Positions 23,283 to 61,994 of a stretch of 64,000 bases of DNA are shown here, piece by piece (positions within the stretch are counted from its first letter, which is position 1; every line of letters begins with the position of its first letter). The translations under genes and the position numbers were made by a program. The notes beneath the pieces are model-generated. The model searched no databases. It saw only the letters and a list, made by a program, of their open reading frames with translations, and had not been told where the DNA came from. This DNA is from Misgurnus anguillicaudatus. Its lineage: Eukaryota; Chordata; Actinopteri; Cypriniformes; Cobitidae. The stretch spans positions 2,217,501-2,281,500 of the forward strand of contig NC_073343.2 of NCBI RefSeq assembly GCF_027580225.2. Reading direction: 5' to 3'.

Positions 23283-23383
23283 TCAGACTCCGAAGTTTGT
23301 TGAGAGTGGAGGTGGAAAGGGAAAGAATGGATATTGAGTGTCATCCTCATCCACGAAAAAACACTGGAAGTAGGGAATGTCCT
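23283..23383 (-). CDS. trdn: trdn last coding exon, conserved C-terminal tail
   Basis: Acceptor TCCACTGCAG, then (G)AG-GAC and the tail EDIPYFQCFFVDEDDTQ continuing through a Phe/Pro-rich end to TGA at 23283-23285. The segment FQC followed by aromatic and acidic residues and then FxFP matches the end of skeletal triadin, whose tail Cys takes part in disulphide-linked oligomers. The phase (2 bases of the first codon) agrees with all upstream exons. Confidence 0.85.
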
Positions 23384-26300
23384 CTGCAGTGGAAAAGACA
23401 TAAGAGGCGACGGATCAGGAATATTAAAGCACACACAAAGGAAATGTGAATAAAATGATTTAGGTATTTGACCTTCGGCTTACTGTAGCTAAATTCGTAG
23501 AGCTGTGGTCTCCAACCTTTTTGTAAGCAAGGGCTACCACAATGGATAAAACAATCTGGAGGGCTACTTTTTGATATAGTCTACTCAAAACTTTTTTGTT
23601 TTACTTGATGATATGTTTTATCATTCTTTAAAATGTTAAAGGAATAGTGTACTCATCTTCAATATTAAAATATGTTATTACCTTAACTAAGAACTGTTGA
23701 TACATCCCTCTATCATCTGTGTGTGTGCATGTAAGCGCTGGAGCACGCTGCGACGCTTCGATAGCATTTAGCTTAGCCCCATTCATTCAATGGTACCATT
23801 TAGAGATAAAGTTAGAAGTGACCAAACACATCAACGTTTTTCTTATTTAAGACGAGTAGTTATACGAGCAAGTTTGGTGGTACAAAATAAAACGTAGCGC
23901 TTTTCTAAGCGGATTTAAAAGAGGAGCTACATGTTATGGCGTAATAGCACTTTTGGGAGTACTTCGAGTCGGCGCAGTAACACCCTCCCTCTCCCATTAT
24001 GAGAGGGAGAAGGGGAATGGACTTTTCAGGCGAGTCGAAGTACTCCCAAAAGGGCTATTACGGCATAAAATATAGTTCCTCTTTTAAATGTGATGATGTG
24101 TTTGGTCACTTCTAACTTTATCTCTGATTGGTACCATTGAATGAATGGGGCTAAGCTAAATGCTATCGAAGCGTCGCAGCGCGCTCCAGCGCTTACGTGC
24201 ACGCACACAGATGATAGAGGGATGTATCAACAATTCTTAGTTAAGGTAATAACATATTTTAATATTGAAAATGAGTAGACTATTCCTTTAACATACAGTA
24301 AATCAAAGCAGCCAAGCTAATATAAAAATATATAATAAATAAATATTACAAATAAAACTATTAATAAAATGTGCTTTTTTGGTGGGCACCATGTTGGAGA
24401 CCACTGTCGTAGAGCATGTTGTTAGCAATGCTAAAAGCTACCCAGTCTCACAAAGTTTCGTGATATAGTCACGTATTTTTTTGATTCTTTTCTCGTGCTA
24501 TTATCACGAAACTTCGTGTTTTTTCGTGATCGTATAACGAATGACTGTTTTCGTGTGATTATCACGTATTGGTTACTCGACTGTTTTTTCCTATTTTTAA
24601 ACCATTGTCGCTTCGGTTTAGGGTTAGATTTGGTGCTTGCATTAGAATGTCACTTTATATATTGATTTTTACTATTTTTTCTGATTTCTTTTTTTATATG
24701 TCACCTGGCGTTAGGGTTAGAGTTGGGTTTGGTTAGGGATGTCATTTTATGTAAATCTAACCCTAAACCGAAGCGACAATGGCAAGAAAATAGGACAAAA
24801 CAGTCGAGCAACCAATACGTGACAATCACACGAAAACAGGAACTCGTCACACGATCACGAAAAAACACGAAACCTCGCGACAATAGCACGAAAAAAGAAC
24901 CAAAAAAAAACACGTGACTATATAACGAAACTTCGTGAGACTGGGCTAAAAATCATGTGTTGAATTATCAGGAAAATCTGATCAAATGTATTCTTTTAAT
25001 TTGCTTTGGATAATAGTGTCTGCCAAATTCACTGACATTCAAAATTGCAAATGGCTATATAATAAATGAAAATGACTTATATCCTCAAGATAAATTAAAA
25101 ATTACTGTACATTATTTTTAAAAAATGACCAAAATAAGTACCCCAGTTGTCAACGGGGCAGCACCCTTTAAAAAGGTACCACTAGGTACAGAAATGTATA
25201 CATTTGGTACCAATATTGTATGAACTCACCCTCCTCTATTTCTGGAGTATCTCTGGTGACATCAGGTTCTTTTCCTTTAATACCAACAGAAGATAAAGTT
25301 ATTCTCAATTAAAAGGATGCACACATAAAACTAAAGCAAATCTTCTATAACCTGTTACTGGAGTTCGTTCAAAAACATACATGCGTGTTTATACATTACT
25401 TTATATCAATTACCTTTGACTTCTTTGTCTTCAGCAACTTCTTTCTCAGTTGGCTTGGCTTAAATAACCAAACATTCACAAAACAAGTTATTTAAAGAAT
25501 TTATGTAAAGAAATAAAAGCTAAATAAAATAAATTCAGCTGTTGCTTTACTTGCATTACTTCCTATAGTGGCTAAGAAAAAATGTTACCCATGATTAGAT
25601 TTAAATACAGAATGCCTTCAGAAATAAATACCTGATTCTGTTTCTTTGACCTCTGGTTCTTAAAGAAAAGTTAAATTAAAAGCATGGTAAAATTTTTAAA
25701 AAGTGTGAAACTGAATTCTTGTTATAAATTGCTCTAATACTCCTCATCTACTATCGGGTTAAATATGAGCCATAATGGAAAATTAAGTCTCTCTTACTAA
25801 AGATTCTATATACAGTAAGTGCACAACAAGTACAGCTATAGTACCTTGATGTAAAGGTTTCTCTGCTTCAACCTCTACATGAGGAATTTCTACAGGAAAG
25901 AGATTTCTTATCAAACACTGATCTTAAACATGCATTCATATTCATAAAGCAATAATAGTGATTTTAACATCTAAATTAAATTCAAGATTATGATATTTAA
26001 AAAAAGAAATTTATGAAGTTGAAAAAGACGAAGTTTACCTTTCAGTTTGGGCTCAGGTCTGATCTTGACCTCTTTTTCTAGAATGGAAAAGATCATTAAT
26101 CTTATATTTAGACAAAAACTACTTTTCAAATTAACATGCAGGGTTGCCAGGTCTGTGTTTCAAAACTAGCCCAATAACCCTAGAACAAACACCAAAACTA
26201 AACATATACCACTCCAAATACCTAAAAACCAAATTTTACAGTCACTGTTATGCCTTGCACACAATTTCTTCTTGAAAAAATAATCACTGTATAATAGTAG

Positions 26301-29300
26301 TAATAAACAGTCTGTTTTCATAAATAAAATAATCATGCATTAATCAACCCACGGCATCAATTTAAAAGTAGCCCAAACCTTGTTTATATGCATCATGATA
26401 TAATAATAATAAGTAAGGGATAACGCTTCGCGTCGGGTCCTGATCACACTGTCGGGGCTTATTTCCCGATAACTACTGGCTGCCTCTACATTATCCTGCT
26501 TATTACACGGCTACTTGTCACATAAGAAAAAAACGGACATGAATATGAATTTGAAACATTTTATTGGCATATTTGTTTTAAATTAAAATTTTTATCCTTC
26601 CGCGAAACTTGCACAGATGCATAAAATGATCGTAATACCTTATTAAGATCCTCTGCTTCATACTTGTCTGTCTCCATTTTTTCTCTTTTATCCAGTCTTT
26701 CAGAAGTTTTAATGCCCATTCTGTATTTTTTTGTATGTTGGCTTCGTAGCTGTCATGCTCTATTTTGTCAAGTTCAGTCTCAGTAAGCTCTCTGTGTCTT
26801 GTCGTTGTTCGTTGTTCTATCCACTGTTTAAATGTTTTGTTTTTTTCCGTACATGTTAAAATGAATGTCAAAATTTTCCATTCTTAATTGTGGTTGTCCA
26901 GTGTTTGTCACAAGATGGCGCCAAACAGTAATCTTTATTGGTCTTTATTGGCGCGGAGCGATTTTAATCGTACAAGTAGTACCGGCCATGCGTTATTACT
27001 TTGGAGCGGTTATTATTTGAAAAGAACGAACCTGCAAATGTCTCAACTGACCAATCAGAATCAAGCATTCCAGAGAGCCGTGTAATAAACTTGTATAACA
27101 GACAATAACCTTTAATTTAAGTAAAAGTTTAAAATGATTAAAAAATAATATTTATACAAACTTTAAAATGTAACTTGTGCAAAACTCATCTCCTGATTTT
27201 AAGTGATATTTACCCAAGATCATGCTAAGATCATTTTAGACATACCTGTCTTTGCAAGTCCAGGTTTAGTGATGTTTTTCAAGGCTTCTGTCTTGTGGAA
27301 ATAAAAGTTTCAGCAGTCATTTGGAACATAAGTTAAAGAAATGAGTGTAAATTAATATAAAGTATATAACAAACAGCAGTTCCAGAATAAACATTACAAC
27401 ATTAGCGAAGGATAGTTCACCCAAAAATTAAGATTTTGTATTAATTTCTTTATTTTGATAAACACAGAGGAAGATATTTTGAGGAATGTTTGTAACCAAC
27501 CCGATCAGAGGACCCATTGACTTCCATAGTGGGAAAAATAATACTATGGGAGTGAATGGGGCTCAGGAACGATTTGGTTACAAACATTCCTAAAAATATC
27601 TTCCTTCATGTTTATCAGAACAAAGAAATTTATACAGGTTTGTAACAACATGCTAACCCTAACCCTTTAAGAACAGACTAATATAGTTTATAACCAAACC
27701 AAACATTTCCTTTCATTTTATACACTGCAAAAAAACTTCTGGACATTGGTTGCACATGATTGAATAAGGTTTTCTTAAAATGAAATTAACATAAATTAAA
27801 ATTACTTTCATTTAAAAAAAAACTTGATTTAATTATGTTGAACTAAATTACGTAGATCCAACAACTTAAACATTTTAAGAAAACTTAATTCAATCATGTG
27901 CAACCAGAGATTTTTATTCAGTGTATCTGAAAAAGTATCTGTATTTGTTTTTATTACCAGGTAGAAACACATTTTCCACGAATTATTCCCCTTAATCTGT
28001 CTGTATACATCTCTACCAGTTTGACACAAACATGCATAGACCCATTCATTACCTCTCTTAAGATGTGCAGTCTTTGTAATGTTCCTTAGCGCTTCTTGTT
28101 CTGTAAATGAAAAATCTTTCACTTAATGTTAAAGGAACACGCCCACTTTTTGGGAATCAACCTCACTCACCGTATCCCCCAGAGCCAGACAAGTCCATAA
28201 ATATCTCCCCCATCTCTGTGCGCGCTGCAACCCTATCCGACGCAGCCCCCGCCAGCCCAGCCCAGCAGAAAGACTGGCAGTGAACGGCTCCAGCTAGCAC
28301 ACTGCTCCCAACAAGTGACAAAACAACGCAAACACTTTCCCATCCACGTGCTGTGACTTGCATAGTCACACTGTGTACAAATAACAAGGCTGTATATATA
28401 CTGAGAACTATAGTCTCAGAATGCGAAGCACTGCTACTTGGGCGGAGTGATTTGCTCGCAGTAGTTCCTAGTATGTATACGGTTAAAAGATAGCTGTGTC
28501 TCATATGACCTTGCTATTCGCTGTGACTAATACAAATCACAACACACAAATAGAAAAATGTTTGCGTTATTTTGTCACTTATTGGGAGCAGTTTGCTAGC
28601 TGGAGCCATTCACTTCCAGTCTTTGTGCTAAGCTAGCGGGGCCGCGCCAGACAGAGCAACAGCACGCACAGAGATGAGAAAGGGGTGCATGGACCTATCT
28701 AACTCTGAGGGACACTGCGAACAAGCCAAATTCCCAAAATGTGGGTGTGTTCCTTTAAAGGTTCATTGCAGGCTCACTTGACTGATGCTTTCACTTTATA
28801 TGAAACCTGCAAAGTGTGGTGTCTGTGCAGCTGTAGCTTAATTTATCCATTGTGACCAAACCTGCATGTAAATATACAATAACTTAGATTTATACAAATA
28901 CCTTTTTTAGCTGGTTTAGCTTTTTCCTTAAAAACTGCAGGTTTTACTTTTCCAAGGACGGCCTCTGTAAAAGACAAAGTATTCAAATATTCAGTAAGTT
29001 ATACACAATTAATCCAGCCTGTATAAAATTTGGAAACAATACCATTGATTGTTCTGTTGTCCATTCTTAAAAGATGAATTTGATTTTGAGTAGACTCCAG
29101 GTCACTTTTCATTTCACCAATGTCTTGCCTCAGTAAATCCAGAAGAGACAGTTTCTGGTTGATGGCGTTCAAGAGCTCCAAATCCAAAGATGCAACATCA
29201 TCTGAAAGTGTTTTGAAACCATAACAATTGCAACGATTCTGGTGCTATTGACACATTGGTTAACTCTTGTCAAATGCACTGACATTTTAGCATTCACAAA

Positions 29301-32300
29301 TTTATTGGATTGACAGATTTTGGCTTAAAGATTTTGAATGTGTTTAATAAGACATTGTGAGGAAATCCCATGTCTTTTGGGTGTTTGTGGTGCTTTTCTC
29401 AGACTCTATAAAGCAGTATCTTGTCACACTTTACACAGTAACAATAAACATAGAATAAGGTCACTGACATGCATACCTTTCTTTACAGGAGCCGCTTTAA
29501 CTTTGTCCTTAATAACTTGAGCCTCTGAAAAGCAAATGATGTTAAAATGATTAAAGAAAAAACTTTTATGGCATCATGTGTCTGGGCTCTGATCTTTAAC
29601 ACAGAAAGGCACATGATGATACAATGACTTTTACCTTTCTTCTCAGGGGCTGCTTTAACCTTTTCCTTGATCACTTTAACCTCTGAAATATTGAAAATGT
29701 GAAAATATTTAGAGAAAATAGAATAAAGTACATTTAGTTATGTATAAAGTATAAAAACAGTAAATCATACCTTTAATTTCAGGGGCTGGTTTTACTTTCT
29801 CCTTGATCACTTCAGCCACTGAAATAGTGAAAGTATTCAAACATTTACAAAGTTACTACTAAGAAAGTAAATATTGTTTAGCATAATATTACATTTAGCT
29901 ATAAATTAAAAAAAGCAGTAAAACACGGTAAATTAAACCTTTCTTCTCAGGGGCTGGTTTAACTTTCTCCTTGATCACTTCAGCCTCTAAAATATTGAAA
30001 ATATAAAAACATTTATTTGAAGTATACATTGTCGAGTATAATATTAATGTGAGTATAATTTTACTATAAACACAGTAAATCAAACCTTTCTTCTCAGGGG
30101 CTGGTTTAACCTTTTCCTTGATCACCTTAGCCTCTTTAATATAGATCATTTTAAATAAAATTAAATGAAGAATACAGTGAGAATAATATTGTGCTATAAA
30201 TAAGCAAAATATTATTTTTGGACAGTAAATCAAACCTTTAATTTGAGGGGCTGGTTTAACTTTCTCCTTGATGACTTCAGCCTCTGAAATAGTAGACATT
30301 TTCAAAATTTGTAGAAAGACAATGTTGTACACATTGTCTACTATTATGCTATATGCATTGTTTAGTACAATATTATATTTAGCTATAAATTAAGTAAAAT
30401 AAAATGCAGTAAAACACAGTAAATCAAACCTTTAATTTTAGGTGCTGGTTTTACTTTCTCCTTGATCACTTTAGCCTCTGAAAGAGTAAAAATATTCAAA
30501 TTTTGATAAAAAGTAGACTTTGTTTACTAGTATGTTATACATTGTTTAGTACAATTTAGTAGCTATAAATAAAGAAAATAACACAGTAAAAAATAGTACA
30601 CCAAACCTTTAATTTTAGGAGCTGGTTTAACTTTTTCCTTTATCACTTTAGCCTCTGAAATAATATAAAAAATATTAATTATATAAGTAATTATTAATTA
30701 TTTATTAAATAATTAATAAAGAATATAGAGAATATATTAATATAATTTTGCTATAAATGAGGTAAAAAACACAGTAAATCAAACCTTTCTTCTCAGGGGC
30801 TGGTTTAACTTTTTCCTTGATCACTTTAGCCTCTTAAAAACAATTAATGAAGAATATAATAGTGAGAATAATATTGAGTATAATTTTGCTATAAATAAGG
30901 TAAAAAACACAGTAAATCAAACCTTTCTTCTCAGGGGCTGGTTTTACTTTCTCCTTGCTCACTTCAGCCTCTAAAATGGTGAACAGATAAAAATTTGAAG
31001 TGGAATACACTGTTAAGTATAATATTACAATCTGCTATGAATGAAGCAAAAAAAAAAAAAACACAGTAAGACACCGTAAATCAAACCTTTCTTCTCAGGA
31101 GCTGGTTTCACTTTCTCCTTGATCACTTTAGCCTCTAAAATTATAAAAATATAAAAAATGTGATAGAGAGAAGACATTGTTTACTATTATGCTATACATT
31201 GTTTAGCGTAATATTACATTTTGCTATAAATGAAGTAAAAAATGCAGTAAAACACAGTAAATCAAACCTTTCTTCTGAGGGGCTGGTTTCAGTTTCTCCT
31301 TGATCACTTCAGCCTCTGAAATGGTGAAAATATAAAAAAAGATGATAGAAAGACGACATTGTTTACTATTATGCTATATTGTTTAGCGTAATATTACATT
31401 TTGCTATAAATGAAGTAAAAAACACAGTAAAACACAGTAAATCAAACCTTTCTTCTGAGGGGCTGGTTTCACTTTCTCCTTGATCACTTCAGCCTCTGAA
31501 ATGGTGAAAATATAAAAAAAATTGATAGAAAGAAGACATTGTTTACTATTATGCTATACATTGTTTAGCGTAATATTACATTTTGCTATAAATGAAGTAA
31601 AAATGCAGTAAAACACAGTAAATCAAACCTTTCTTCTGAGGGGCTGGTTTCACTTTCTCCTTGATCACTTCAGCCTCTGAAATGGTGAAAATATAAAAGA
31701 ATTGATAGAAAGAAGACATTGTTTACTATTATGCTATACATTGTTTAGCGTAATATTACATTTAGCTATAAATTAAGTAAAAAACACAGTAAAACACAGT
31801 AAATCAAACCTTTCTTCTGAGGGGCTGGTTTCACTTTCTCCTTGATCACTTCAGCCTCTGAAATGGTGAAAATATAAAAAAATTGATAGAAAGAAGACAT
31901 TGTTTACTATTATGCTATACATTGTTTAGCGTAATATTACATTTAGCTATAAATTAAGTAAAAAACACAGTAAAACACAGTAAATCAAACCTTTCTTCTG
32001 AGGGGCTGGTTTCACTTTCTCCTTGATCACTTCAGCCTCTGAAATTGTGAAAATATAAAAGAATTGATAGAAAGAAGACATTGTTTACTATTATGCTATA
32101 CATTGTTTAGCGTAATATTACATTTTGCTATAAATGAAGTAAAAAATGCAGTAAAACACAGTAAATCAAACCTTTCTTCTGAGGGGCTGGTTTCACTTTC
32201 TCCTTGATCACTTCAGCCTCTGAAATGGTGAAAATATAAAAGAATTGATAGAAAGAAGACATTGTTTACTATTATGCTATACATTGTTTAGCGTAATATT

Positions 32301-50300: not shown

Positions 50301-53300
50301 AGTATTTATTAAAAAGTGTCATTCTGTGTGATGAACTGTCTTTACAAACCTGCTTTTTGATCAGCCTGGTGTTCTTTGTGTTCTTTTATTTCACTTCTTT
50401 TAGGCTTTGATGGCTTTTCCTCTGAAAGACAAAAAATAGGTATTTTATTAGAATAAACTTAATAAACTAAAAAGCACTTTCTTACAATTAATTAAACCTT
50501 CCAAATAATATTTCAATTGAATACATTTAAACGTAACAATCACATAGAATAACATTATTAACTAAAACCATGGGGCTTCACATTACTAGGGATGCACCAA
50601 GTTGTTTTTTCCATTATGATCTAATTTCGATACCTGAATTCTGAGTATCGCCTGACACCGATCCCAATCTGATACTAGTACTGTTTTATTCTTGATCAAT
50701 TTAGAATAGCTTATCTACACATACGTACTGTATATACACGTGTGTGTAGAGCTCTTACAGCTACAACAGGTGCAATAATTTTAAAATTACTATTTGTGTC
50801 ACAAGATTGACAGTGTCCTTAAAGCTTATTAACTCTTTCCTGGCCAGCATTTGCCAGCCAGCACCAGCATTTTTTATGATTCTCACAAAAGTTTATTCCT
50901 TCCAGTACATTTTCTTCTTTAAATATTTAAACAAAATTAAATGTAAGGTGGGTAAGAGCGCCACCTACTGCATAATAGCCCAAATATGGATTGACGTAAA
51001 ACTCGTCTTTGGCAGGGAAGCATTTTCTCTTAATTGACGAGATAACTTGTCAATGGAGGGAAAACAGTTAATCGTGGCAGTGTTTAAGACAACTTATGAT
51101 ACTAGGTAGTAGGTATGACAAATACAAATTAAATAGGCTAAATATATTTTTCTTGTGCGTAATATAAAGGCTCCAACAAAAAGTCTCACAAAACCGTTTA
51201 TGCGCATTCCTGGTGCACAATGATGAACTTTAAGCATCCTCTACTTTTAAAGTCACAGGGATCCTTGTGCCACAATGGACAACTATAACCGTGAAAACAT
51301 AAAGAGAACAGATATTTTAATGTGCTTACCACATTGTGTACTGTATCCCGCCAAGAGTTTACTAAGCCTTTGTTTAATCAGATGTTTAAAATAGTTATTG
51401 TGTTTGTAAATAATGTTTCGTTCAAGACGCTACTCTTCAAACTAAGAAACCCAGTATTGATCTGGATTGGCTCAAGCAGCAAAAAGATCATTATTGGACC
51501 CGAAACAGATTCCAGGTCTCGGACTGATGCATCCCTAACATCTACAGATTCCCATGGATAAGAGCCGCTGTCACAAAACTACTGTAGGCAAAGCTTAAAC
51601 ACTGATCAAAGCAGTTAGCAGTTAACTAGCAGACCATAAAGTCTTACCATAAGCATCTATTTCTACCCGGAAAACACAATAATGTTTAAAATCATAAATG
51701 AACTGTCATATTTTCATAAGATATCATTAGGATTTCTTGACCCTCTGTATTACTCTGTATTATTAAAGTCGCCATGAAACGGAAGTAGCGATTGCCTTAT
51801 TTTCCCCGTGGTGACGTATATCCGAATGAAACGGCTTTTGAGTTGAAATAAGGCAGGGCTGGATTTGAATTTGTCCATCGAGATCTGATTGGATCGTTTG
51901 AAGTTGGGTCGTGTTGCTAATTGGTAATCGCTGCGATCTTCTCCCGGACCCCGCCCACCTGCCATACTTTTGACCGGAAGTGAAGAGATATCGTTTTGAG
52001 GAGGGAAGGAGATTTGCATTTTTGATTAAAGATTATGAGCACACACGAATTTAAAAATAATGAAGCTCACAGATAAGTCATTTGTTAATAATACAACAAT
52101 ATTAAAAATATATATATAGTTTTTCATTTTAATTTCATTGCGACTTTAAAAGTAAGGAATAATTGACGACGGCCCATTGAATTATAAGAAAATAATGCAC
52201 ACCAAGGTGGTAATGCGGCACGGACCGGAGTCAATTATTCCGCTTATACCACGGTTACCACAAACATTGCTCCGGTGCCTATTTTTAAGACATTTGACAA
52301 GTTAGGTGTGCGTTTACAGAAAAATAATCAACACCCATAGAACATTTCTCAGCCAATCAGAATGCAGCATTCAACAGACCCGTGGCATAAAATAGATGTA
52401 ACGAATTCTGGCATTACATGTTAAGCATGTTACGTTGATATCGTTGATATCACTTTACAATTTTATACTGCCTAGGAAGCAGTGCTTGTTTGGGCATTAG
52501 TACGCTACATATACATGTATGTACCAGATTTCCGTTCTTTTTGTTTCTTCTGTTTAAGAATGGGTTCCTCATCCACTTTAGTCTCCTTGACTTTTTTATG
52601 AGGCTTTTCCTTTTCTAGAAAACACATATATATACACATATATATATATATATATACTGTAATGCAAAAACATAATCTCGAAACAGAGAAGCAGCGTGAG
52701 GAACATAATCTAAGTATAATCTAAACCTTAAGCAGCTAATTCTACCCGATAAAGTTTAAGCAATAAAATAAAGTTTATAATCATGAATGAACGGTCATAT
52801 TTTCATAAGATATCATAAGGTTTTCTTGTCCCTCTTCATTGTATTAAAATACATCAAATATTAAAATAGATATAATGAATGCTGATTGCTAACAATGAAA
52901 AATATAGGAATGTACTTTGGTATTGCCACTTTACATTAACATTTAGGCAGTTTTATACCAAAGAGGAAGCAAGCTTGTTTGGGCATTACGTATACATGTA
53001 TCTACCAGATTTCAGTTCTTTATGTTTCTTCTGTTTGAGAATAGATTCCTCATCCACTTTAGTCACCTTGACTTTTTTATGAGGTTTTTCCTTTTCTAGA
53101 AAAAACATTTATACAGTATATACTGTAATGCAAAAACATAATATCGATAGAGAACAGAGAAGCAGTGTGAGGAACATAATCTAAGTAAACCTTAAACCTT
53201 AAGCAGCTATTTCTACCTGATAAAGGTAAGCAATAAAATAAAGTTTATAATCATGAATGAACTGTTATATTTTCATAAGATATCATAAGGTTTTCTTGTC

Positions 53301-56300: not shown

Positions 56301-58761
56301 TATTTTTTTTCCAGAGATGAATTTAATTATTTTAAAATCAAAATATACAAATAATACCGAATTAGTATTTCATGTTTGTTTTGGCCTATATTTAAATTAT
56401 ACAAATATTATACCTTTGTCATATTCTTCATGAAGATCCTTGTGCGCATGGTCTTCTGTGTCAATGGAATGAGTCTCCTTTTCATCTGCCTTCACCAATC
56501 TTCTGCTTTTCCTTATGGTAGTTTTCTTTCTGTCATTGTTATTGTTATTTTCATCTTCTCCACCTGTGATGTTATGTTTAATGGTAGGCAAGACAAGCTC
56601 CTCCTCATATGTTTGTTCTTCTTTGGCTTCCAAAATGGAATGGTCAGACTTTTCACTGTCCTCCTTTACAACCTTTTCCTGATCTTTCTCTACCTCATCC
56701 TGGATGTCTTTTGTGCCCTTATTAGCATCATTAATTGCCTCATATTCTCCTTCCTTGTCCAAGACTTCTAAATCATCTGTGCCCTTGTCTTTATTATGAT
56801 CATCAAGTTCTGCTGCTTCATTTGTTTCTTTATCATCTGTGACATCAGCTCCATCTTCTTCTGTTTCAGGTTCTTCTTCATCATCTGTGTAATAAGAGGT
56901 ATAATTAACTGTTTCAGATTCTGTGTGTTCTGTGACACCAAGAATTTTGTCAACTTCTGCTTCATCTGGGATCTTTTCCGTTGTTTCTTCTGAAATATCA
57001 GAAATATTATCTATTGTTTCAGTTGCTGATTCTTCATCTTCGAAATCAAAACTGTCTTCAGTTCTTTTTTCCTCCTGTGTAATATCAGCAAGATCTATAT
57101 CTGAGGTATCTTTGTCTATTTCAGTAATTTCTCCCTCCTCTTTAACATCAAAGATATCTTCATCTGAGGTATCTTCATCTGTTTCAATAATTTCAACATC
57201 ATCTTTAACATCAAATATATCTTCATCTGAGGTATCTTCCTCTGTTTCAGCAATTTCTCCTTCCTCTTTAACATCAGAGATATCTTCATCTGAGGTATCT
57301 CCATCTGTTTCAGTAATTTCTCCTTCCTCTTTAACATCAGAGATATCTTCATCTGAGGTATCTCCATCTGTTTCAGTAATTTCTCCTTCTTCTTTAACAT
57401 CAAAGACATCTTCATCTGAGGTATCTTTATCTGTTTCAATAATTTCATCATCATCTTTAACATCAGAGAGATCTTCATCTGAGGTATCTTCCTCTATTTC
57501 AGTTATCACATCATCTACAACATCAGATATATCTTCATCTGAGGTATCTTCCTCTGTTTCAGCAATTTCTCCTTCCTCTTTAACATCAGAGATATCTTCA
57601 TCTGAGGTATCTCCATCTGTTTCAGTAATTTCAACATCATCTTTAACATCAGAGCTATCTTCATCTGAGATATCTTCATCTGTTTCAATAATTTCACCAT
57701 CATCTTTAACATCAAAAATATCTTCATCTGAGGTATCTTCCTCTGTTTCAGTTATTTCTACATCATCTACAAAATCAGAGATGTCTTCATCTGATGTATC
57801 TTTATCTGTTTCCGTAATTTCACCATCATCTTTAACATCAGAGATATCTTCATCTGATGTATCTTCCTCTGTTTCAGTTATCACATCATCTACAACATCA
57901 GATATATCTTCATCTGAGGTATCTTCCTCTGTTTCAGCAATTTCTCCTTCCTCTTTAACATCAGAGATATCTTCATCTGAAGTATCTTCATCTGTTTCAG
58001 TTATTTCTTCATCGTCTTTAACAACAGATATATCTTCATCTGAAGCATCTTCGTCTATTTCAGTAGTTTCTCCTTCTTTAACATCAGAAATATCTTCACC
58101 TGATGTATCTTCATCTGTTTCAGTTATTTTTCCATCATCTTCAACAGTAGAGATATCTTCATCTGAGGTATCTTCATCTTTTCCAGTAGTTTCTCCCACC
58201 TGTTTGACATCAGAGATATCTTCATCGAATATATCTTCATCTATTGCAATAGTTTCTTTAGCATCAGTGATATTTTCATCTGCGATATCTTCATCTGTTT
58301 TAATATTTTCTTCCTCCTCCTTGACATCTGAGGTATCTTCAGCGTCTACTTGAATAGTGACATCAGCGCTATCCTCAGTTATTTTAATGCCTTCCTGTTG
58401 ATCATCCAAGATGTTCCCAACTATTTCAGTTTTGGTATCTTCTTTCATCTTGATTGTGTCCTTCTCAACTATGGTCTCCTTAACCTCCTTTATTTCATCT
58501 GTAGTGCTTTCTGTCCTCTTCACTGCGGATCTCACAGTGATGTAGGCAGCATCGTGTTTTTTGCCCATTATTTCTGCAACTTTTGTATGTAGCCATTAGC
58601 TGATTACTGAGTTTTTATTCAGGTTTATGTCCAAAACCGAGGTCACATTAACGTGCAAGACATTACAGATGTTCAGGTTAACAGTTGCAGTCATTACATT
58701 AAATCACATAGTATGCTTTCAGGTGTATGCACATGTTGCGACCCTGGAAAATAATAAGCTG

Positions 58762-58819
<58 letters not shown>

Positions 58820-61800
58820 CTAGTTTTAAAATCTTTTAATCTTAAAATCACAGGGCATAAATATTGTGGACGTCACAATATTCTTGCAACATGTGCCAAG
58901 ACCTCCTACATGCTCTGTGTGAATATACGTATATATACAGATGAATGTATCAGGTTAGACTTTTTCACTACACTGCAAAGAAGAAAATGGAAATCAAGCA
59001 AACCAAGAAATGCAATAAAGACAATTGTTTATTTTTGTATTTGTAAATATGACATGCATTTTACCAGTCTATATAAATACATAAATAAAAAACAAGCAAA
59101 TAGATCAGAACATAAATAAACATGGACAACATAAGCACACATAAAGATGAATAAATATGATGTGACAAGTCTTAAAACTATACAATGTCTATCAAATAAA
59201 AGATCTTGCATCATATGTAAACAAATACTTTACATGCACTCATTCTCTTGCAAGTGCCCAAAAGGAAAACATACAATTGTGTTGTTGTTGTTTTAGTAGT
59301 CATAACATCTAGTCATTTTATTAGTTTTGATTACTAGTATTAATTTAAATGTTAAAGCTTTAATGTAAAGGAATGTTCAATTACTAACCTTTTGTCATAG
59401 GGGGCAGAAATTCTCCTGGGAATTAATTAGGAATTTTGTAAGATTTTAAAGAGGGTGTTAGTAGCCACAGACTCACAAATAAATGAAAGGTATTTAATAA
59501 ATAATACTGATTATTATATCATTAAATGCATTGGCACCAACCTTTTCTTCTTATCACTTGTGGTGTATCATCTGAAACAGACACCAGCTCAGACAGTTAA
59601 ATATGTAATAGCATATTTGAAAAGTTTTGTAACGTTGTAGTGCTTTTCCAGCTGCAGTTTGCTGGTTAGAAGCTCCATGATTGGCGGATGATGATGAGGA
59701 GCTGGAGTAAAAGATACTACATGGGAAGTCCGACCGGAGAGAAATTATTTTCAGTGGTGAAACTGGTCTCCAGTCCCCACCTGTTGTATAATTTCTCTTT
59801 ATCATGGTGTGTGAACTAGTTGTAGTTTGTATAATTTAAGACAGGGATCTCCAACCTTTTTGTGAGCAAAGATTGGATAAAACAACCAGAAGGACTACAT
59901 TTTTTATATAGTCTACTCGAAACTTTTTAGTTTTGATTGCTGACTCTGTTTTTTTACTTTACTTGTTGATATTTTATAATTGTTTAAAATGTTTAAAATG
60001 TTAACGAACATAAAAAAATTCAAGCTTTTATAAAAAATATGTCATAAATAAATATTAAAATTGAGGCTATTAATAAAATGTGCTTTGGCGGCAACTTACA
60101 GACTTCATGTGGACAACCTGTGTTTTGAGTTAAAATCTGCAGGACAATACCTCTCCAGGAGCAGAGTTGGAGACCCTGGCAAAGTAAAAATTGGGGGCTC
60201 GTCCGGGATATAAATTACCTAAAAAACAGAAATTATACAAAAGACGTGGACAGGACACCAGTTTCACCACAGAAAGCAATCTCTCTCCTGTCAGACTCCC
60301 AGGTTGTATCCTTTATTCAAGCTTTTCAACAACATCCACCAATCAGGCTACAGAGCATCTCACCAGCAAGCTCCAGCTGAAAGAGGAAACTGCAACAAAG
60401 CAAAAGGAAACACCAAACACAATACACATCCTCAGATGTAACATTTGTGATATACTTTCACGAATACCTTTGTCTTCCATGAGCATGTTTGAGAGGTAGG
60501 CTAAGAACATGTCTCTCCTGTCAGCAAATTCCTCAACTGTGTCTGTGAGTACTTTCATAGGATCAAAGCTGATGTCAGGAATACCACCTGGTAAAACTGA
60601 TAAAATGATAACACAATGAATAAAAATGGTTTAAGTCAATTAAATTAAATGCTGTTTCAATCTGTTAAATTAGCAAATACCTTTATCACCAACAAATAAG
60701 TTGGATAGGTAGTTAGAAACAGAGTTTTTTAGCTCTATGGCCTCCTCTGCAACATTGCCAACCAGCCTCGTAGGAACAGTGCTCATTTCAGAAGTCCAAG
60801 CTGAATGATGTGATAAAATATTATATGTGACCTTTTCTAAAGATACAATTTCTTTGATAAATCAAGTTTTGGTGATTTGAAGTACCTTTAATGTCTTCAA
60901 ACATGGTTGAAAGATATTGCAAAACAGCTTTTGCCCCACTTAAAATGTACATGGCTGCGTCACTGGCCATTTCCGCAGGATAAACGAAAGCTACGTCCAG
61001 AATGTCTGAACAGCAGGGAGACATTACACAGATATTAGTGAATCTGGCCTGTGCATGTTTTAAATTATATTGAATTTTTTCAGATCTCACTCATTTTAGC
61101 AAGGGAATTGGCGACAGGTTAAAAATCCTGTTTTTGAGTTCAATCTAATTCCAGGTTTCTGATTGCATATCAGCTCGCTAACAACAAAGCAAAATGATTT
61201 CATCACAAACGCAGTTACCTTCAAACATCTGGAATAAGTAGCTCACTGGGAATCGAATCCAATCTGTAGCTTCATCTAATACAGTGCCACCAAATGCCAC
61301 TTTTTCAGTGACTCCAAAATCTCCTGCATGAAAAAAACGCAGAACTATATAAATGAACAAATGTCCAGTTGGGTTTTCTGCTTATTAAAAGAGGTTAATG
61401 ACTGTGAATAAATACTTGACATACCATAGTCACTAAATACATCTGACAGATAAGACACAGATGAGTCAGCTGCTAAATTAACTGCGTCCATTGGATTAAA
61501 ACTCATTTCAGTGACATACTCTGAAACAACAAGAGAGGATGAGAGAGACTTGACATGAACATTGCTGAATATCAATTGAATGTCACCCCATGTATGTTTA
61601 AAGCTGTTTGTACTGTTAAAAAGCCCACCATAAGTATCTGTGAACATATCGTTCATGTTGTTTATTCCATTTTCAATGCCTTCAACAGCCTTTTCTATTG
61701 CTAACATTGGATCAGATCCTAATTCCTGGATGCCTACATGGAAAAAGTTTGGCACAAATCAAACATCCAACAAGAGCAACACTGTCATAAATATAATGTG

Positions 61801-61994
61801 TTATAGCAAAATTAATTCAAACTTACTTGCAAGCTGATCATCGCTCACAAAGTCAAACATGACAATACCAGCTATTGACCATGAGATCAAAAGTGAAATG
61901 ATAAGCAGCCATTGTGCAGGACGATTTAGGATTCTGAAAAGTCCATGGCTCCCGGCCGTGAGAGCTTCTGGATGCACTGGTCTTACTGGGGCAT
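23283..61994 (-). CDS. trdn: Triadin, giant multi-exon gene (spliced, 5' end not found)
   Basis: Triadin is a single-pass protein of the junctional sarcoplasmic reticulum that ties calsequestrin to the ryanodine receptor through luminal Lys/Glu (KEKE) motifs. Here about 114 exons can be read, every internal one phase 1-1 with GT donors and AG acceptors. Together they hold about 2,780 codons, against about 730 residues in human triadin. Order: membrane span, six luminal modules, acidic repeat exon, KEKE-type exon arrays, coiled-coil exon, conserved Cys-bearing tail. Identity rests on the membrane exon (WLLIISLLISWSIAGIVMF; human has WLLVIALIITWSAVAIVMF), on GSDP in the first luminal exon, on the KEKE repeats, and on the tail IPYFQCFFVDEDD, which matches human ISFFQCVYLDGYN. 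The start codon exon is not identified; alternative splicing is likely, so no single transcript need contain everything. Confidence 0.88.
23505..24420. repeat. Dispersed repeat split by a TTAA foldback insertion
   Basis: 23505-23635 and 24292-24420 are the two halves of one repeat (GGTCTCCAACCTTTTTGTAA ... CACCATGTTGGAGACCAC). An uninterrupted relative lies at 59841-60180. The split is exactly at TTAA. It lies in the last intron of trdn. Confidence 0.7.
23636..24291. mobile_element. TTAA foldback element, copy 2
   Basis: Same family as 16030-16760: TTAAAGGAATAG at the left and CTATTCCTTTAA at the right, long inverted arms, GC-rich centre. One arm has a deletion, making it 656 bp. The empty counterpart at 59841-60180 shows that one TTAA became two on insertion. 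Confidence 0.85.
24441..24946. mobile_element. Foldback element rich in CACGAAA/TTTCGTG words
   Basis: Termini CCCAGTCTCAC and GTGAGACTGGG, with CTA immediately outside each. Both arms contain many degenerate copies of a short word (ATCACGAAA/TTTCGTGAT) and mirrored CCTAAACCGAAGCGACAATG. The central stem is AGGGTTAGA-rich. It lies in the last intron of trdn. Confidence 0.75.
25230..28964 (-). CDS. trdn: trdn 3'-proximal exons (8)
   Basis: Exons at 25230-25274, 25414-25458, 25632-25658, 25845-25889, 26039-26077, 27246-27287, 28053-28100 and 28902-28964 (27-63 bases). They are all phase 1-1. They are more diverged than the central array: the peptides run GKEPDVTRDTPEIEE, AKPTEKEVAEDKEVK, EPEVKETES, EIPHVEVEAEKPLHQ, EKEVKIRPEPKLK, EALKNITKPGLAKT and EQEALRNITKTAHLKR, plus a 21-residue AVLGKVKPAVFKEK-containing one. 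The 27246 and 28053 exons share EAL(K/R)NITK and look like an exon duplication. Introns host a Crypton-like relic, a hAT-like MITE and a TTAA MITE. Confidence 0.7.
26578..26890 (-). pseudogene. Decayed Crypton-type (DUF3504-like) protein fragment
   Basis: Minus-strand reading gives ELTETELDKIEHDSYEANIQ then NTEWALKLLKDWIKEKK. After a one-base slip it continues KMETDKYEAEDLNKVLRSFY. That layout resembles the N-terminal part of fish KIAA1958-like proteins of the DUF3504 class, which derive from Crypton tyrosine-recombinase transposons. The frameshift and missing catalytic part mark it as dead. It sits in a trdn intron between exons 26039-26077 and 27246-27287. GTCTCAACTGACCAATCAGA downstream is probably part of the same element. 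Confidence 0.5.
27412..27640. mobile_element. GGATAGTTCACCCAAAAAT-type non-autonomous element
   Basis: Begins with the word GGATAGTTCACCCAAAAATT, which starts a very abundant fish MITE family, and has internal mirrored halves (GGAAGATATTTTGAGGAATG against CATTCCTAAAAATATCTTCC). Located in a trdn intron. Confidence 0.6.
27725..27926. mobile_element. Palindromic MITE, CACTGCAAAAAAA end
   Basis: Left arm GGTTGCACATGATTGAATAA pairs with right arm TTAATTCAATCATGTGCAAC. It lies in the trdn intron between exons 27246-27287 and 28053-28100. Confidence 0.6.
28129..28758. mobile_element. TTAA-bounded MITE
   Basis: TTAAAGGAACACGCCCACTT at the left and ATGTGGGTGTGTTCCTTTAA at the right, about 630 bases. 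The left and right thirds are imperfect inverted copies (AGACTGGCAGTGAACGGCTC against GGAGCCATTCACTTCCAGTC). The 113-codon minus frame inside is not protein-like. Confidence 0.75.
29043..29201 (-). CDS. trdn: trdn-frame exon encoding a coiled coil
   Basis: A 159-base exon with acceptor TTTCAG, donor AATG|GTATTG and phase 1-1, so it fits the triadin frame. The product differs from all neighbours: it lacks KEKE and Pro and runs DDVASLDLELLNAINQKLSL then LLDLLRQDIGEMKSDLESTQ. Leu and Ile fall at heptad-like spacing, giving a likely coiled coil. It could be a triadin-specific oligomerisation segment. It also resembles the coiled-coil part of LINE ORF1 proteins, so an exonised fragment is possible. 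Splicing into trdn is inferred from frame and position only. Confidence 0.55.
29477..31134 (-). CDS. trdn: trdn KEKE exon array, older copies (11)
   Basis: Eleven 48-base exons: 29477-29524, 29635-29682, 29771-29818, 29939-29986, 30086-30133, 30236-30283, 30430-30477, 30607-30654, 30785-30832, 30923-30970 and 31087-31134. Each encodes 16 residues of the type EAEVIKEKVKPAPEKK, including EAQVIKDKVKAAPVKK, EVKVIKEKVKAAPEKK and VAEVIKEKVKPAPEIK. Introns are only about 90-150 bases and are themselves related (AAATGAAGTAAAAAACACAG words), so exon and intron were copied together. Lys/Glu alternation is the calsequestrin-binding signature of triadin. Confidence 0.82.
31268..32757 (-). CDS. trdn: trdn exon-bearing tandem satellite (9 young copies)
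   Basis: Nine 48-base exons at 31268-31315, 31448-31495, 31629-31676, 31810-31857, 31991-32038, 32172-32219, 32353-32400, 32534-32581 and 32710-32757. Exon starts are 180 or 181 bases apart, the last step being 176. Exon and intron are both nearly identical between units (CTATTATGCTATACATTGTT and AAACACAGTAAATCAAACC recur in every intron). The peptide is almost invariant: EAEVIKEKVKPAPQKK-like. This is recent tandem amplification of an exon-plus-intron unit, and copy number probably varies between individuals or assemblies. Confidence 0.85.
32790..33490. mobile_element. Insertion interrupting the exon array
   Basis: Left edge TTACACTTTACAATAAGGTT and right edge CAACCTTATTGTAAAGTATT are inverted repeats enclosing about 700 bases without exon-like sequence. 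The right part shares TTAGTGAATGTTAGCTAATG with repeats at 9290-9480 and 45590-45690. It separates the young satellite from exon 33572-33607. Confidence 0.65.
33572..37444 (-). CDS. trdn: trdn KEKE exon array (24 exons)
   Basis: Exons, all phase 1-1: 33572-33607, 33706-33753, 33875-33922, 34016-34063, 34179-34232, 34312-34356, 34464-34511, 34651-34698, 34830-34877, 34974-35021, 35154-35201, 35308-35355, 35460-35507, 35606-35653, 35771-35818, 35904-35951, 36067-36111, 36544-36600, 36683-36730, 36819-36860, 37003-37050, 37134-37181, 37263-37310 and 37403-37444. Most are 48 bases. The first is 36 bases (EAKVIKEKVKIK), missing the Pro-Ala-Pro part. 34179 and 36544 are longer, Pro-rich variants (KAPEPKPEPVKK, EPDVPKEKTTKPTPEPPKK). 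Introns are less alike than in 31268-32757, so these duplications are older. Confidence 0.8.
37623..38265. mobile_element. hAT-type element with 8-bp target duplication
   Basis: Ends TAGTGATGG and CCATCACTA are flanked on both sides by the exact octamer CCAATGGC (37615-37622 and 38266-38273), the signature of hAT insertion. The interior is full of TTCGAA/CGAAGC words. No transposase. The two minus frames inside it are by-products. It has inserted into a larger repeat (about 37490-38300) with GCTGGGTTATTTTCAA/TGGGTTGAAAATA edges. Confidence 0.85.
38385..43697 (-). CDS. trdn: trdn KEKE exon array (20 exons)
   Basis: Exons: 38385-38423, 38599-38643, 38736-38792, 39882-39929, 40021-40068, 41252-41299, 41405-41449, 41542-41589, 41669-41716, 42119-42163, 42269-42307, 42392-42436 (alternative acceptor would extend it to 42442), 42527-42571, 42658-42702, 42816-42860, 42936-42983, 43119-43166, 43278-43322, 43407-43454 and 43653-43697. 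Sizes are 39-57 bases, all phase 1-1. Peptides are divergent KEK variants such as EIIKEKRKPAQKK, VEVSEEKVKTVQEDR, EADVKKKATPASVKK, EVKEKDKPASVKK, APEITKEKPKPAPKK and DAEVIEEKAKPAPEKK. Several introns have grown by MITE insertion. Confidence 0.78.
38856..39069. mobile_element. TTAA-bounded MITE (left of a back-to-back pair)
   Basis: TTAAAGGGACACTCCACTTT at the left and AAGTGGAGTGTCCCTTTAA at the right. Its right TTAA (39066-39069) is also the left TTAA of the next element. Lies in the trdn intron between exons 38736-38792 and 39882-39929. Confidence 0.8.
39066..39860. mobile_element. TTAA-bounded MITE (right of a back-to-back pair)
   Basis: TTAAAGGACAAGTTCGGTAT at the left and ATACCGAACTTGTCCTTTAA at the right, with long imperfect inverted arms (AAAATTCTCGGGGCAGCC motif mirrored). 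The overlapping frames of about 90 codons on both strands are by-products of the palindrome. Confidence 0.8.
40128..40535. repeat. Interspersed element related to 8500-9228
   Basis: Shares AAATGCAAATGAGCTGATCT, CGGCAGTGCCGTGGTTG and CCCAATTATAGCACTTA-type words with the 8500-9228 region. Edges look like GGGACATTTCAC and TATGTCCCC. In a trdn intron. Confidence 0.55.
40593..40827. mobile_element. TTAA-bounded MITE
   Basis: TTAAAGGCGGAGTCCACGAT and ATCGTGGACTCTGCCTTTAA are inverted ends with TTAA at 40593-40596 and 40824-40827. 235 bases, noncoding, in a trdn intron. Confidence 0.8.
40982..41220. mobile_element. MITE with GGGGCGGTTTCCCAGACAGG ends
   Basis: Perfect-looking inverted termini GGGGCGGTTTCCCAGACAG and CTGTCTGGGAAACCGCCCC. 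The interior carries mirrored AGGCCTTATCCTAGTC / GACCTGGATTAATCTTAAC. Ends 31 bases before exon 41252-41299. Confidence 0.75.
41885..41923 (-). pseudogene. trdn: Decayed trdn KEKE exon
   Basis: The minus strand still reads (G)TC-ATC-AAA-GAA-AAA-CTC-CCT-GTA-AAA-AAA, a VIKEKLPVKK-like version of the array peptide. The donor has become AAAGGGTTG and the 5' part of the exon is lost, so it no longer fits the phase 1-1 pattern. It looks like an exon that fell out of use. Confidence 0.45.
43806..43902. repeat. Short palindromic repeat
   Basis: AAGGAATAGTTCACGACGGG and its near-complement (GGCCCGTCATCAATAATTCC) face each other around CACCCACAGCGGGTG. A related sequence with the same GACGACGGCCCATTGAATT word lies at 52155-52390. 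Confidence 0.55.
44114..47185 (-). CDS. trdn: trdn KEKE exon array (15 exons)
   Basis: Exons: 44114-44161, 44361-44402, 44662-44709, 44797-44844, 44973-45014, 45132-45179, 45373-45417, 45727-45765, 45862-45909, 46052-46099, 46251-46298, 46447-46494, 46634-46681, 46767-46814 and 47141-47185. Sizes are 39-48 bases, phase 1-1. Peptides include EPKAAKKEDKPAPPKK, EAIKEKSKPAPEKK, DAEVIKEKAKPAPEKK, EPVSTKEKPKPTRK, ETTIAVEKPKPAPEK, EPEVIKEKKPPQK, EDKTPKDKAKPGRVEK and EREVSKEKVITAPSKK. The last (EAKIKDKTPSASVKK) has a transposon against its acceptor. Confidence 0.78.
47190..48402. mobile_element. PIF/Harbinger-like non-autonomous element
   Basis: Termini GGGCTCTATCTTACACCC and CGTTAAAATAGGGCCC, with TAA on both outer sides (47187-47189 and 48403-48405), the 3-bp duplication of PIF/Harbinger transposons. 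The subterminal sequence is rich in GGCGCAA and GCGCAATG words on both ends. No transposase in the 1.2-kb body. The left TAA overlaps the splice acceptor of exon 47141-47185. Confidence 0.8.
48681..50421 (-). CDS. trdn: trdn exons, diverged KEK and Lys-rich set (10)
   Basis: Exons: 48681-48716, 48807-48851, 49021-49068, 49193-49240, 49327-49368, 49515-49535, 49683-49715, 49889-49930, 50156-50188 and 50350-50421. Sizes are 21-72 bases, all phase 1-1. Peptides include EPEKVEPAPIKK, VTEAAKKKAKPVVKE, EAKVVKEKPKAHPAKK, EPRVSKEKAKPTRSRK, EVAKEEVKETAVDQ, DDVTKKVVKTK, EAKKEKLKPVDIPK and EGERKIKPAKK. The 21-base exon at 49515-49535 encodes just ECRKQVT and adds a Cys. The 72-base exon carries the EIKEHKEHQADQKA segment. 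Confidence 0.7.
50586..51538. mobile_element. hAT-like non-autonomous element
   Basis: Left end TAGGGATGCACCAAGTTG and right end GGACTGATGCATCCCTA are inverted, resembling hAT families whose ends begin with (C)AGGGATGCACCGA. About 950 bases, no recognisable transposase; the small frames inside are not protein-like. In the trdn intron upstream of exon 50350-50421. Confidence 0.6.
51763..52149. mobile_element. TTAA-bounded MITE
   Basis: TTAAAGTCGCCATGAAACGG at the left and TTTCATTGCGACTTTAA at the right (TTAA at 51763-51766 and 52146-52149). The 89-codon minus frame is a by-product. Confidence 0.7.
52155..52392. repeat. Interspersed repeat adjoining a MITE
   Basis: AAGGAATAATTGACGACGGC followed by TATTCCGCTTATACCACGGT and CAGCCAATCAGAATGCAGCA. 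Related to 43806-43990 (shared TTAGGTGTGC and AACATTTCTC words). Confidence 0.5.
52525..54065 (-). CDS. trdn: trdn tandem 90-base exons (4 copies)
   Basis: Four 90-base exons, phase 1-1, at 52525-52614, 53006-53095, 53484-53573 and 53976-54065, spaced 481, 478 and 492 bases apart. Each encodes 30 residues of the form EKEKPHKKVKETKVDEEP then ILKQKKQKERKS, with a few substitutions (VTKVDEES in later copies). The introns are also homologous (CATATTTTCATAAGATATCA and TTTGGTATTGCCACTTTACA recur), so exon and intron were duplicated together. This is a second, independent exon amplification in the gene, with a unit almost three times longer than the 180-bp one. Confidence 0.85.
54289..54637 (-). CDS. 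trdn: trdn Lys/Glu-rich exons after the acidic exon (2)
   Basis: Exon 54572-54637 (66 bases) encodes VLEHVKEAKEKRSKEEIYKM-IQ. Exon 54289-54435 (147 bases) encodes DMRDKKAEAEEEEVIEKKKE, then AKPKEKVTEKLQKPKEGKK and a short Thr/Lys tail. Both are phase 1-1. They are the first strongly basic exons on the luminal side and resemble the KEKE-rich segment that follows the acidic stretch in mammalian triadin. Confidence 0.75.
54638..56413 (-). other. trdn intron with an unexplained open frame
   Basis: A 1.8-kb intron with no exon I can support. The minus frame 55802-56062 (86 codons, with a stretch HVHFSGRRRRSFWDKNSF) has a somewhat protein-like composition but no recognised domain and no convincing splice sites. 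It could be a transposon remnant. Confidence 0.4.
56414..58573 (-). CDS. trdn: trdn giant acidic repeat exon
   Basis: One uninterrupted exon of 2160 bases. Acceptor TTGCAG|AAATAATGGGC, donor GACAAAG|GTATAA, phase 1-1, so an upstream codon G|AA gives EIMGKKHD. It opens with a mixed segment (AAYITVRSAVKRTESTTDEI), then carries about 19 degenerate copies of a 20-21-residue acidic repeat, typically SDVKEEGEITETDEDTSDED. It ends in a Glu/Asp-rich, then Lys/Arg-containing part (KKTTIRKSRRLVKADEK). Mammalian triadin has only a short Asp/Glu run just after its first luminal segment; this would be a greatly enlarged version. A luminal, low-affinity Ca2+-binding role is inferred from composition. The ATG near 58568 could alternatively start a separate acidic protein, but the splice sites and phase argue for an internal exon. 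Confidence 0.75.
58574..59541 (-). other. trdn intron with microsatellite
   Basis: Contains an A-run followed by a (TA)n microsatellite at about 58760-58812. No exon seen. Confidence 0.6.
59542..59571 (-). CDS. trdn: trdn 30-base microexon
   Basis: Acceptor GTCTGTTTCAG, donor AAAAG|GTTGG, phase 1-1, encoding DDTPQVIRRK. It would sit between the luminal modules and the acidic exon. The acceptor is strong, the donor ordinary, and being so small it needs transcript support. Confidence 0.45.
59841..60180. repeat. Dispersed repeat, uninterrupted copy
   Basis: GGGATCTCCAACCTTTTTGT ... CAGAGTTGGAGACCCTG, the same repeat as 23505-24420 but without the foldback insertion: here AAAATGTTAACGAACATAAA is continuous. 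It lies in a trdn intron. Confidence 0.7.
60468..61733 (-). CDS. trdn: trdn luminal helical modules (6 exons)
   Basis: From the N-terminal side: 61629-61733 (105), 61425-61520 (96), 61219-61323 (105), 60886-61005 (120), 60681-60800 (120) and 60468-60596 (129), all phase 1-1 with clean GT/AG sites. Each encodes 32-43 residues with a shared plan: (F/S)(D/N)PM or similar, a variable helical part, then YLS(D/N)xF and an acidic end. Module ends read NGINNMNDMFTDTY, SSVSYLSDVFSDY, RFPVSYLFQMFE, VLQYLSTMFEDIK, NSVSNYLSNLFVGDK and MFLAYLSNMLMEDK. Human triadin has one such segment (GSDPLKL ... EETTDWIYGFFSLLSDII): the first module keeps GSDP and the third keeps EATDWI. So a single ancestral luminal segment appears to have been multiplied to six. 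Confidence 0.8.
61827..61994 (-). CDS. trdn: trdn membrane-span exon
   Basis: 168-base exon, acceptor TTCTCACTGCTGCAG, donor GCAA|GTAAGT, phase 1-1. A cytosolic part (DAPVRPVHPEALTAGSHGLF) leads into RILNRPAQW and a single hydrophobic span WLLIISLLISWSIAGIVMF, followed by DFVSDDQLA. Human triadin has WLLVIALIITWSAVAIVMFD at the same place. The open frame runs on upstream to an ATG at 62118, but the first 40 codons would read through the acceptor, so I treat them as intron or, with weak support, as exon 1 (62046-62118, MSSSCKRSKEMPNSS, phase 1 donor AAAG|GTTATC). Confidence 0.85.

Follow-up and report, generated by a model that had tools for sequence, protein, structure and literature searches.

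The window analysed here is a 64,000-nt stretch of the genome of the loach Misgurnus anguillicaudatus, in which a putative triadin gene occupies the minus strand from 61994 to 23283 (114 modelled exons, 8,357 coding nt). A Cx43-type connexin gene is located at 1576-2661 on the plus strand, its coding region in a single open frame (E 5e-92 for Connexin and 1e-14 for Connexin43); in human, GJA1 and TRDN both map to 6q22. A minisatellite with a 21-nt unit (63474-64000) reaches the end of the window and probably belongs to intron 1, and by eye it has long open stretches in one minus-strand frame. A long inverted repeat between the last two exons of the gene (23640-24300), also judged by eye, resembles a DNA-transposon remnant.

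The first-pass annotation of this DNA had described a triadin gene of about 114 symmetric phase 1-1 exons with GT/AG borders and a coding capacity near 2,780 codons. Our rebuilt model, which arrives at the same number of exons and at 2,785 codons, the first coding exon not included, confirmed this exon series: each exon before the last has a length that is a multiple of three, AG/GT borders, and phase 1-1 (113/113), the last exon begins in the same phase as the 113 others, and the one stop is at the end, 23283. The introns are short (median 131 nt). Exons were identified with a self-trained finder that chains by phase 1-1, AG/GT borders, and codon usage; it chained 96 exons on the gene strand, and manual work guided by splice sites and fish relatives then added or redrew 19 of the 114. 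The finder chained no exon on the opposite strand, on either strand of 1-23250, or in each of 20 dinucleotide shuffles, while the two other phases gave 3 and 0 exons, the 3 being fragments of the same exons. Because the finder was trained on the triadin region, these controls attest specificity and not independent discovery; independent support for the model comes from the N-terminal, acidic, linker, coiled-coil, NITK, and C-terminal exons, which match predicted fish proteins. A candidate 21-nt exon chained by the finder (49535-49515, CRKQVT) was omitted from the model, and an acceptor at 58573 for the acidic exon was dropped for 58579 on comparison with the fish relatives P0008-P0010.

Read along the minus strand, to which all exon coordinates refer, the model begins with an exon that holds a single transmembrane segment (AQWLLIISLLISWSIAGIVMF; 61827..61994) and aligns with the fish relatives, followed by six luminal phase 1-1 exons within 60468..61733 (61733-61629, 61520-61425, 61323-61219, 61005-60886, 60800-60681, and 60596-60468), where the N-terminal part matches the same relatives. 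Two small exons conserved in the fish relatives, DDTPQVIRRK (59571-59542) and GEFLPPMTK (59415-59389), precede a giant acidic exon of 2,166 nt (56414..58579), the two ends of which match P0008, P0009, and P0010. Then come two linker exons, beginning VLEHVKEAKEK (54637-54572) and DMRDKKAEAEEEE (54435-54289), with counterparts in P0001, P0008, and P0010, the first linker also in P0009. Four tandem 90-nt exons (54065-53976, 53573-53484, 53095-53006, and 52614-52525) recur at a repeat of ~480 nt and lead into the 88 small KEKE exons described below. Downstream of these are a coiled-coil exon of 159 nt (29043..29201), homologous to LINE ORF1 coiled coils, and eight small C-terminal exons within 25230..28964 (28964-28902, 28100-28053, 27287-27246, 26077-26039, 25889-25845, 25658-25632, 25458-25414, and 25274-25230), including two NITK exons with counterparts in P0010. 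The last exon, with the stop codon, lies at 23283..23383. No convincing first coding exon was found in the window, where 62-64 kb was searched; a weak candidate, MTPATK, is located outside it at 75533-75515 on the window scale, and four relatives start with MAQATK.

Judging from its membrane segment, its C-terminus, and its fish relatives, the minus-strand gene is a triadin, an identity that the first-pass annotation had right. Ten database proteins (P0001-P0010) align with the N-terminal 300 residues, eight relatives from fishes (Pseudorasbora, Colossoma, Pangasius, Tachysurus, Sinocyclocheilus, Danio aesculapii, Cyprinus, and Ameiurus), all of which we take to be otophysans, at 47-65% identity and two others at 34-35%. 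The UniRef name Triadin, a database label only, is borne by P0004 (E 5e-80) and P0010 (E 5.6e-76), and the other labelled relatives are uncharacterised or hypothetical except P0002, a characin relative labelled microtubule-associated protein 1B, which is likely a misannotation from KEKE-type repeats. As in a triadin, there is one transmembrane segment behind a short N-terminus, seen as a single hydrophobic peak across the 2,785 aa, the first coding exon being present only as a candidate. At the C-terminus, PYFQCFFVDEDDTQYPFFPF corresponds to PYFQCFYVDEYDIQYPFFPF in the catfish relative P0010, both carrying the conserved FQC(F/Y)VDE segment, and the luminal repeat region contains 42 KEKE motifs by the formal definition, which includes a proline-free stretch (from the available part of PMC3427183). 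Asp-B-Hydro_N (PF05279), which would point to the junctin/ASPH side, had no match to the N-terminal part up to E 1 in Pfam, and among seven relatives it was matched only by P0003, at 13.0 bits against a cut-off of 23. When the N-terminal part was searched against its own 1.12-Gb assembly, all seven reported matches fell in the triadin gene (scoring covered the best five candidate places), and as far as one search shows the gene appears to be single-copy, in line with the single triadin copy of zebrafish (PMC8471218, in the part available).

The predicted relatives are 196-1,172 aa long, and the N-terminal part, whole or partial, was found in all ten. They came from searches of proteins of ~165-525 aa (seven matches) and ~758-2,411 aa (three matches), 526-757 aa being outside both; the longest relative, 1,172 aa, was found in the latter. 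No relative was found among proteins of ~1,493-4,750 aa, a search crowded by acidic words. By eye, the models of P0001, P0003, P0004, P0008, and P0009 stop 1-2 residues past a donor site of the window, with the ends KSGT, KEKG, KEKGQ, KKGM, and IIQGE, which are read-through ends or predictor artefacts. Structure prediction of the luminal part with AlphaFold (alignment of 7 relatives, P0003 first) gave a mean pLDDT of 32 and was set aside. Among solved relatives, one weak match for the N-terminal part (E 0.54) and one for the coiled coil (E 0.029) were taken as chance.

The acidic exon (58579-56414) encodes 722 aa with 42% D/E and a net charge of -241, and contains a 63-nt tandem repeat of 18.5 copies (TRF). 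Acidic stretches occur at the same place in P0008 (574 residues, net -145), P0009 (389, net -91), and P0010 (499, net -79), whose ends, including NNNNND, are common with those of the loach exon. The models of P0001 and P0002 cross this site with the preceding exon joined straight to the following exon, so the acidic exon is skippable or missing there. It holds 16 SDED motifs and 18 S-x-E sites, a modest excess over shuffled sequences (mean 10.0, maximum 18 in 1,000 shuffles); Fam20C favours S-x-E and phosphorylated co-expressed triadin (available part of PMC6298778). The Ca2+-buffering tail that had been suggested for this gene fits this separate acidic exon (net -241) but not the KEKE exons (net +205).

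The 88 KEKE exons (29477..50421) are 30-72 nt long, most of them 48 nt, with the consensus EAEVIKEKVKPAPEKK. In order they are exons 1-12, 50421-50350, 50188-50156, 49930-49889, 49715-49683, 49368-49327, 49240-49193, 49068-49021, 48851-48807, 48716-48681, 47185-47141, 46814-46767, 46681-46634; exons 13-24, 46494-46447, 46298-46251, 46099-46052, 45909-45862, 45765-45727, 45402-45373, 45179-45132, 45014-44973, 44844-44797, 44709-44662, 44402-44361, 44161-44114; exons 25-36, 43697-43653, 43454-43407, 43322-43278, 43166-43119, 42983-42936, 42860-42816, 42702-42658, 42571-42527, 42442-42392, 42307-42269, 42163-42119, 41716-41669; exons 37-48, 41589-41542, 41449-41405, 41299-41252, 40068-40021, 39929-39882, 38792-38736, 38643-38599, 38423-38385, 37444-37403, 37310-37263, 37181-37134, 37050-37003; exons 49-60, 36860-36819, 36730-36683, 36600-36544, 36111-36067, 35951-35904, 35818-35771, 35653-35606, 35507-35460, 35355-35308, 35201-35154, 35021-34974, 34877-34830; exons 61-68, 34698-34651, 34511-34464, 34356-34312, 34232-34179, 34063-34016, 33922-33875, 33753-33706, 33607-33572; exons 69-78, 32757-32710, 32581-32534, 32400-32353, 32219-32172, 32038-31991, 31857-31810, 31676-31629, 31495-31448, 31315-31268, 31134-31087; and exons 79-88, 30970-30923, 30832-30785, 30654-30607, 30477-30430, 30283-30236, 30133-30086, 29986-29939, 29818-29771, 29682-29635, 29524-29477. 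Together with the four 90-nt exons, these form a repeat block of 92 exons (54065-29477; 1,488 aa) that is 73% P/E/V/K, or 83% with A, and has a net charge of +205.

The exons of this block appear to be freely interchangeable. Exons before the last end in G (112/113) or A (1/113); all split codons therefore start with G or A, and none of them can be a stop. The full 92-exon block is open, and so were random subsets with 10, 25, 50, or 75% of its exons kept, in 100 of 100 trials each. The free skipping claimed for these exons is thus supported mechanically, by their symmetry and by the open random subsets. Both the KEKE count and the charge scale with the exons kept, each exon contributing 0.40-0.45 motif and a charge of about +2.2. 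All 42 formal KEKE motifs of the repeat region span exon junctions, and only five of 111 exons of 10-59 residues hold such a motif alone. Taken alone, the repeat region has 43 motifs, compared with a mean of 25.5 and a maximum of 34 in 200 shuffles. The consensus has prolines at the 11th and 13th residues, and most repeat exons bear proline in their second half, so that the proline-free KEKE stretch falls across the junction. From the sequence, joining two repeat exons can rebuild a KEKE motif, a strict motif being formed at fewer than half of the exon joins.

The block grew stepwise. Inside it lies a tandem array of a 181-nt exon-plus-intron unit (31056..32786) that contains ten exons, with nine units at a mean identity of 0.959 and six of nine neighbouring exon pairs identical, and this array is a recent growth step. 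The ~480-nt repeat of the 90-nt exons is another step, and older ones are seen as matches between blocks of 3-5 exons at ~64-70% identity (outside the array, among 40 of 110 matches listed). Single-exon duplication as the sole route was ruled out by these multi-exon matches.

Purifying selection on the repeat exons is indicated by their codons. Of the 58 exons of 48 nt, 57 were compared; they gave a dN/dS of 0.25 to the consensus and 0.29 for adjacent pairs, and codon-position entropy was highest at third positions; gene conversion could lower dN/dS. Of these 57 exons, 51 are distinct. The milder neutral simulation, at half the observed synonymous divergence, led us to expect a stop in 29% of copies, while none was seen (0/57); the chance of no stop is 3e-9 for 57 exons and 3e-8 for the 51 distinct ones, figures that treat copies as independent and so overstate the case. 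Because the finder demands open exons, broken copies were looked for separately: with a translated profile, no repeat peptide turned up beyond the modelled exons, and a DNA profile gave two weak matches there (7.1 and 6.8 bits). Identity between neighbours (78 pairs) was 0.78 for exons and 0.76 for introns, against shuffled backgrounds of 0.63 and 0.66, and none of the 41 neighbouring pairs with exon identity of at least 0.75 had intron identity below 0.62. Introns were duplicated together with exons, and conservation of exons over introns is therefore unusable as evidence.

The coiled-coil exon (29201-29043) is shared with the catfish model (35 of 51 aligned columns identical), and it aligns in register and without gaps with ORF1-type proteins of its own genome, at 36-43% identity over 49-50 residues (loci L014-L017, L025, and L026). 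In eight comparisons the scores were 100-116, against a maximum of 76 among 2,000 heptad shuffles each, a homology to LINE ORF1 beyond coiled-coil composition. Four other places in the genome match the exon (best E 4.9e-6, the rest 3.7e-4 to 4.6e-4). Two of these places, L025 and L026, have ORF1 and a 1,258-aa ORF2, and the ORF2 that was scanned, that of L025, contains RVT_1 (E 4.9e-41) and Exo_endo_phos (E 6.2e-16); the best-matching copy, L014, is a 90-aa frame in surroundings that are LINE-like by eye. ORF1 of L015 matched no L1 ORF1 model in Pfam and five coiled-coil families below their cut-offs, and the exon alone matched UPF0242 (E 0.002). On contigs C6 and C10, L025 and L026 are near-identical LINEs with open ORF1 and ORF2, and the family therefore looks young. 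The coiled-coil exon is likely an exapted retrotransposon domain, and we infer that transfer from LINE to host before the catfish-cypriniform split would be the parsimonious order.

We think it somewhat probable that this gene is a triadin in which a KEKE exon was multiplied to 92 phase 1-1 exons under purifying selection, yielding a splice-tunable multivalent scaffold for calsequestrin and RyR. The KEKE-repeat exon would have been duplicated singly and in blocks, and variable exon inclusion may then produce luminal tails of differing length and charge from one gene. Such a positive tail would bind acidic calsequestrin and the luminal loop of RyR at many weak sites; its capacity and reach would depend on how many exons are kept, and so would the amount of calsequestrin retained at the release channel. 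A Ca2+-binding or calsequestrin-like segment may be added by the acidic exon, and the LINE-derived coiled coil near the C-terminus may join chains into oligomers. LINE-1-like ORF1 proteins trimerise, while the coiled coil of zebrafish ZfL2-1 is a dimer (available part of PMC3905857). Peptide 200-232 of triadin both binds RyR1 and activates it, and the binding of calsequestrin 2 to triadin-1 falls inside that motif (PMC3427183). Counting against the scaffold are the short relatives, the three splice products reported for zebrafish, the lack of a match to the Pfam junctin/hydroxylase N-terminal model, the prolines in most exons, strict KEKE motifs at fewer than half of the joins, and the near-equal identity of exons and introns.

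This last point weighs toward another explanation, to which we give a minor but real chance, namely that most repeat exons are passengers, a few being used in transcripts while the others form a satellite-like expansion that the introns carry. It would agree with the short database models, with the three splice products reported for zebrafish in the accessible part of PMC8471218, and with introns copied along with exons and nearly as alike; the youngest array is near-identical and thus mute on selection. Passengers would not be expected, however, to keep a dN/dS of ~0.25 or to show no stop in 57 exons (again assuming independence), nor were broken copies found when looked for, and predictors overlook exons of this kind, as in titin, where Gnomon found a mean of 73.9 and PEVK_Finder 89.4 (PMC6469411, in part). 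That the exon count is in part an artefact of assembly or copy number, with the 181-nt array collapsed, expanded, or polymorphic, appears very improbable: the near-identity of its nine units and of six of nine neighbouring exon pairs would invite it, but the array accounts for only 10 of 114 exons, most of the compared 48-nt exons are distinct (51 of 57), and the host contig is 41.7 Mb long.

There are two further readings. In one, rather improbable in our view, the gene encodes a charge zipper that is self-contained and gated by Ca2+, in which the -241 acidic exon would fold onto the +205 KEKE tail at low luminal Ca2+ and Ca2+ filling would free the tail for calsequestrin and RyR, with splicing setting charge balance and valency exon by exon and the LINE coiled coil multimerising the chains, a role that disulphides have in mammals. 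In the other, the protein would be an elastic tether of PEVK type inside the SR lumen; the composition (73% P/E/V/K, 83% with A) and the numerous small tandem exons resemble titin PEVK (PMC6469411, as available), but the protein has one membrane segment only, a second load-bearing attachment is not known here, and no Ig-type domain was found in the pieces and relatives scanned. With one anchor seen, nothing here shows elasticity; the elastic tail of the first-pass annotation found no support beyond its PEVK-like composition, and we regard it as highly doubtful.

The splice-tunable scaffold reading bears on how triadin length sets Ca2+ release, which the exon series addresses: with 92 interchangeable, stop-proof KEKE exons that bear a selection signature, the dose of binding sites would be separable from sequence and testable through splicing. 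In the literature searched (triadin, with 20 of 30 zebrafish papers listed, KEKE, exon duplication, and retrotransposon exons, with few subscription journals), the exon expansion and the coiled coil were undescribed as judged from titles and the first lines of abstracts, and no paper was found pairing TRDN with 41 exons. Human triadin is a protein of ~730 residues, and compared with mammalian triadin, the loach gene has a far longer repeat region, a giant acidic exon, and a coiled-coil exon. Mammalian triadin (Trisk 95 and shorter isoforms) is alike in being a single-pass SR protein with a luminal KEKE motif, whose splice isoforms differ in luminal length (available parts of PMC3427183 and PMC8471218). 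The fish relatives share the N-terminal part (all ten), the acidic exon (P0008-P0010), and the coiled coil and C-terminus (P0010), but from linker exon to coiled coil the catfish model P0010 has 160 aa against 1,559 aa here, and such models may be incomplete, as exons may be omitted from it in the way Gnomon omits them in titin PEVK (PMC6469411, in part). Titin PEVK, with 81-116 exons found in 41 mammals, is similar in its PEVK composition in small tandem exons and in a length set by splicing (same part of PMC6469411), whereas gene, compartment, and anchoring differ, both termini here being those of triadin and not of titin; we claim no homology, and the loach gene would parallel titin PEVK in a protein other than titin. 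LINE ORF1, in turn, matches in register and without gaps only in the coiled coil, which a single phase 1-1 exon carries; no other portion of ORF1, nor ORF2, was seen in the modelled triadin gene. If this exon is expressed, a LINE protein domain would have become part of the complex that releases Ca2+ in fish muscle.
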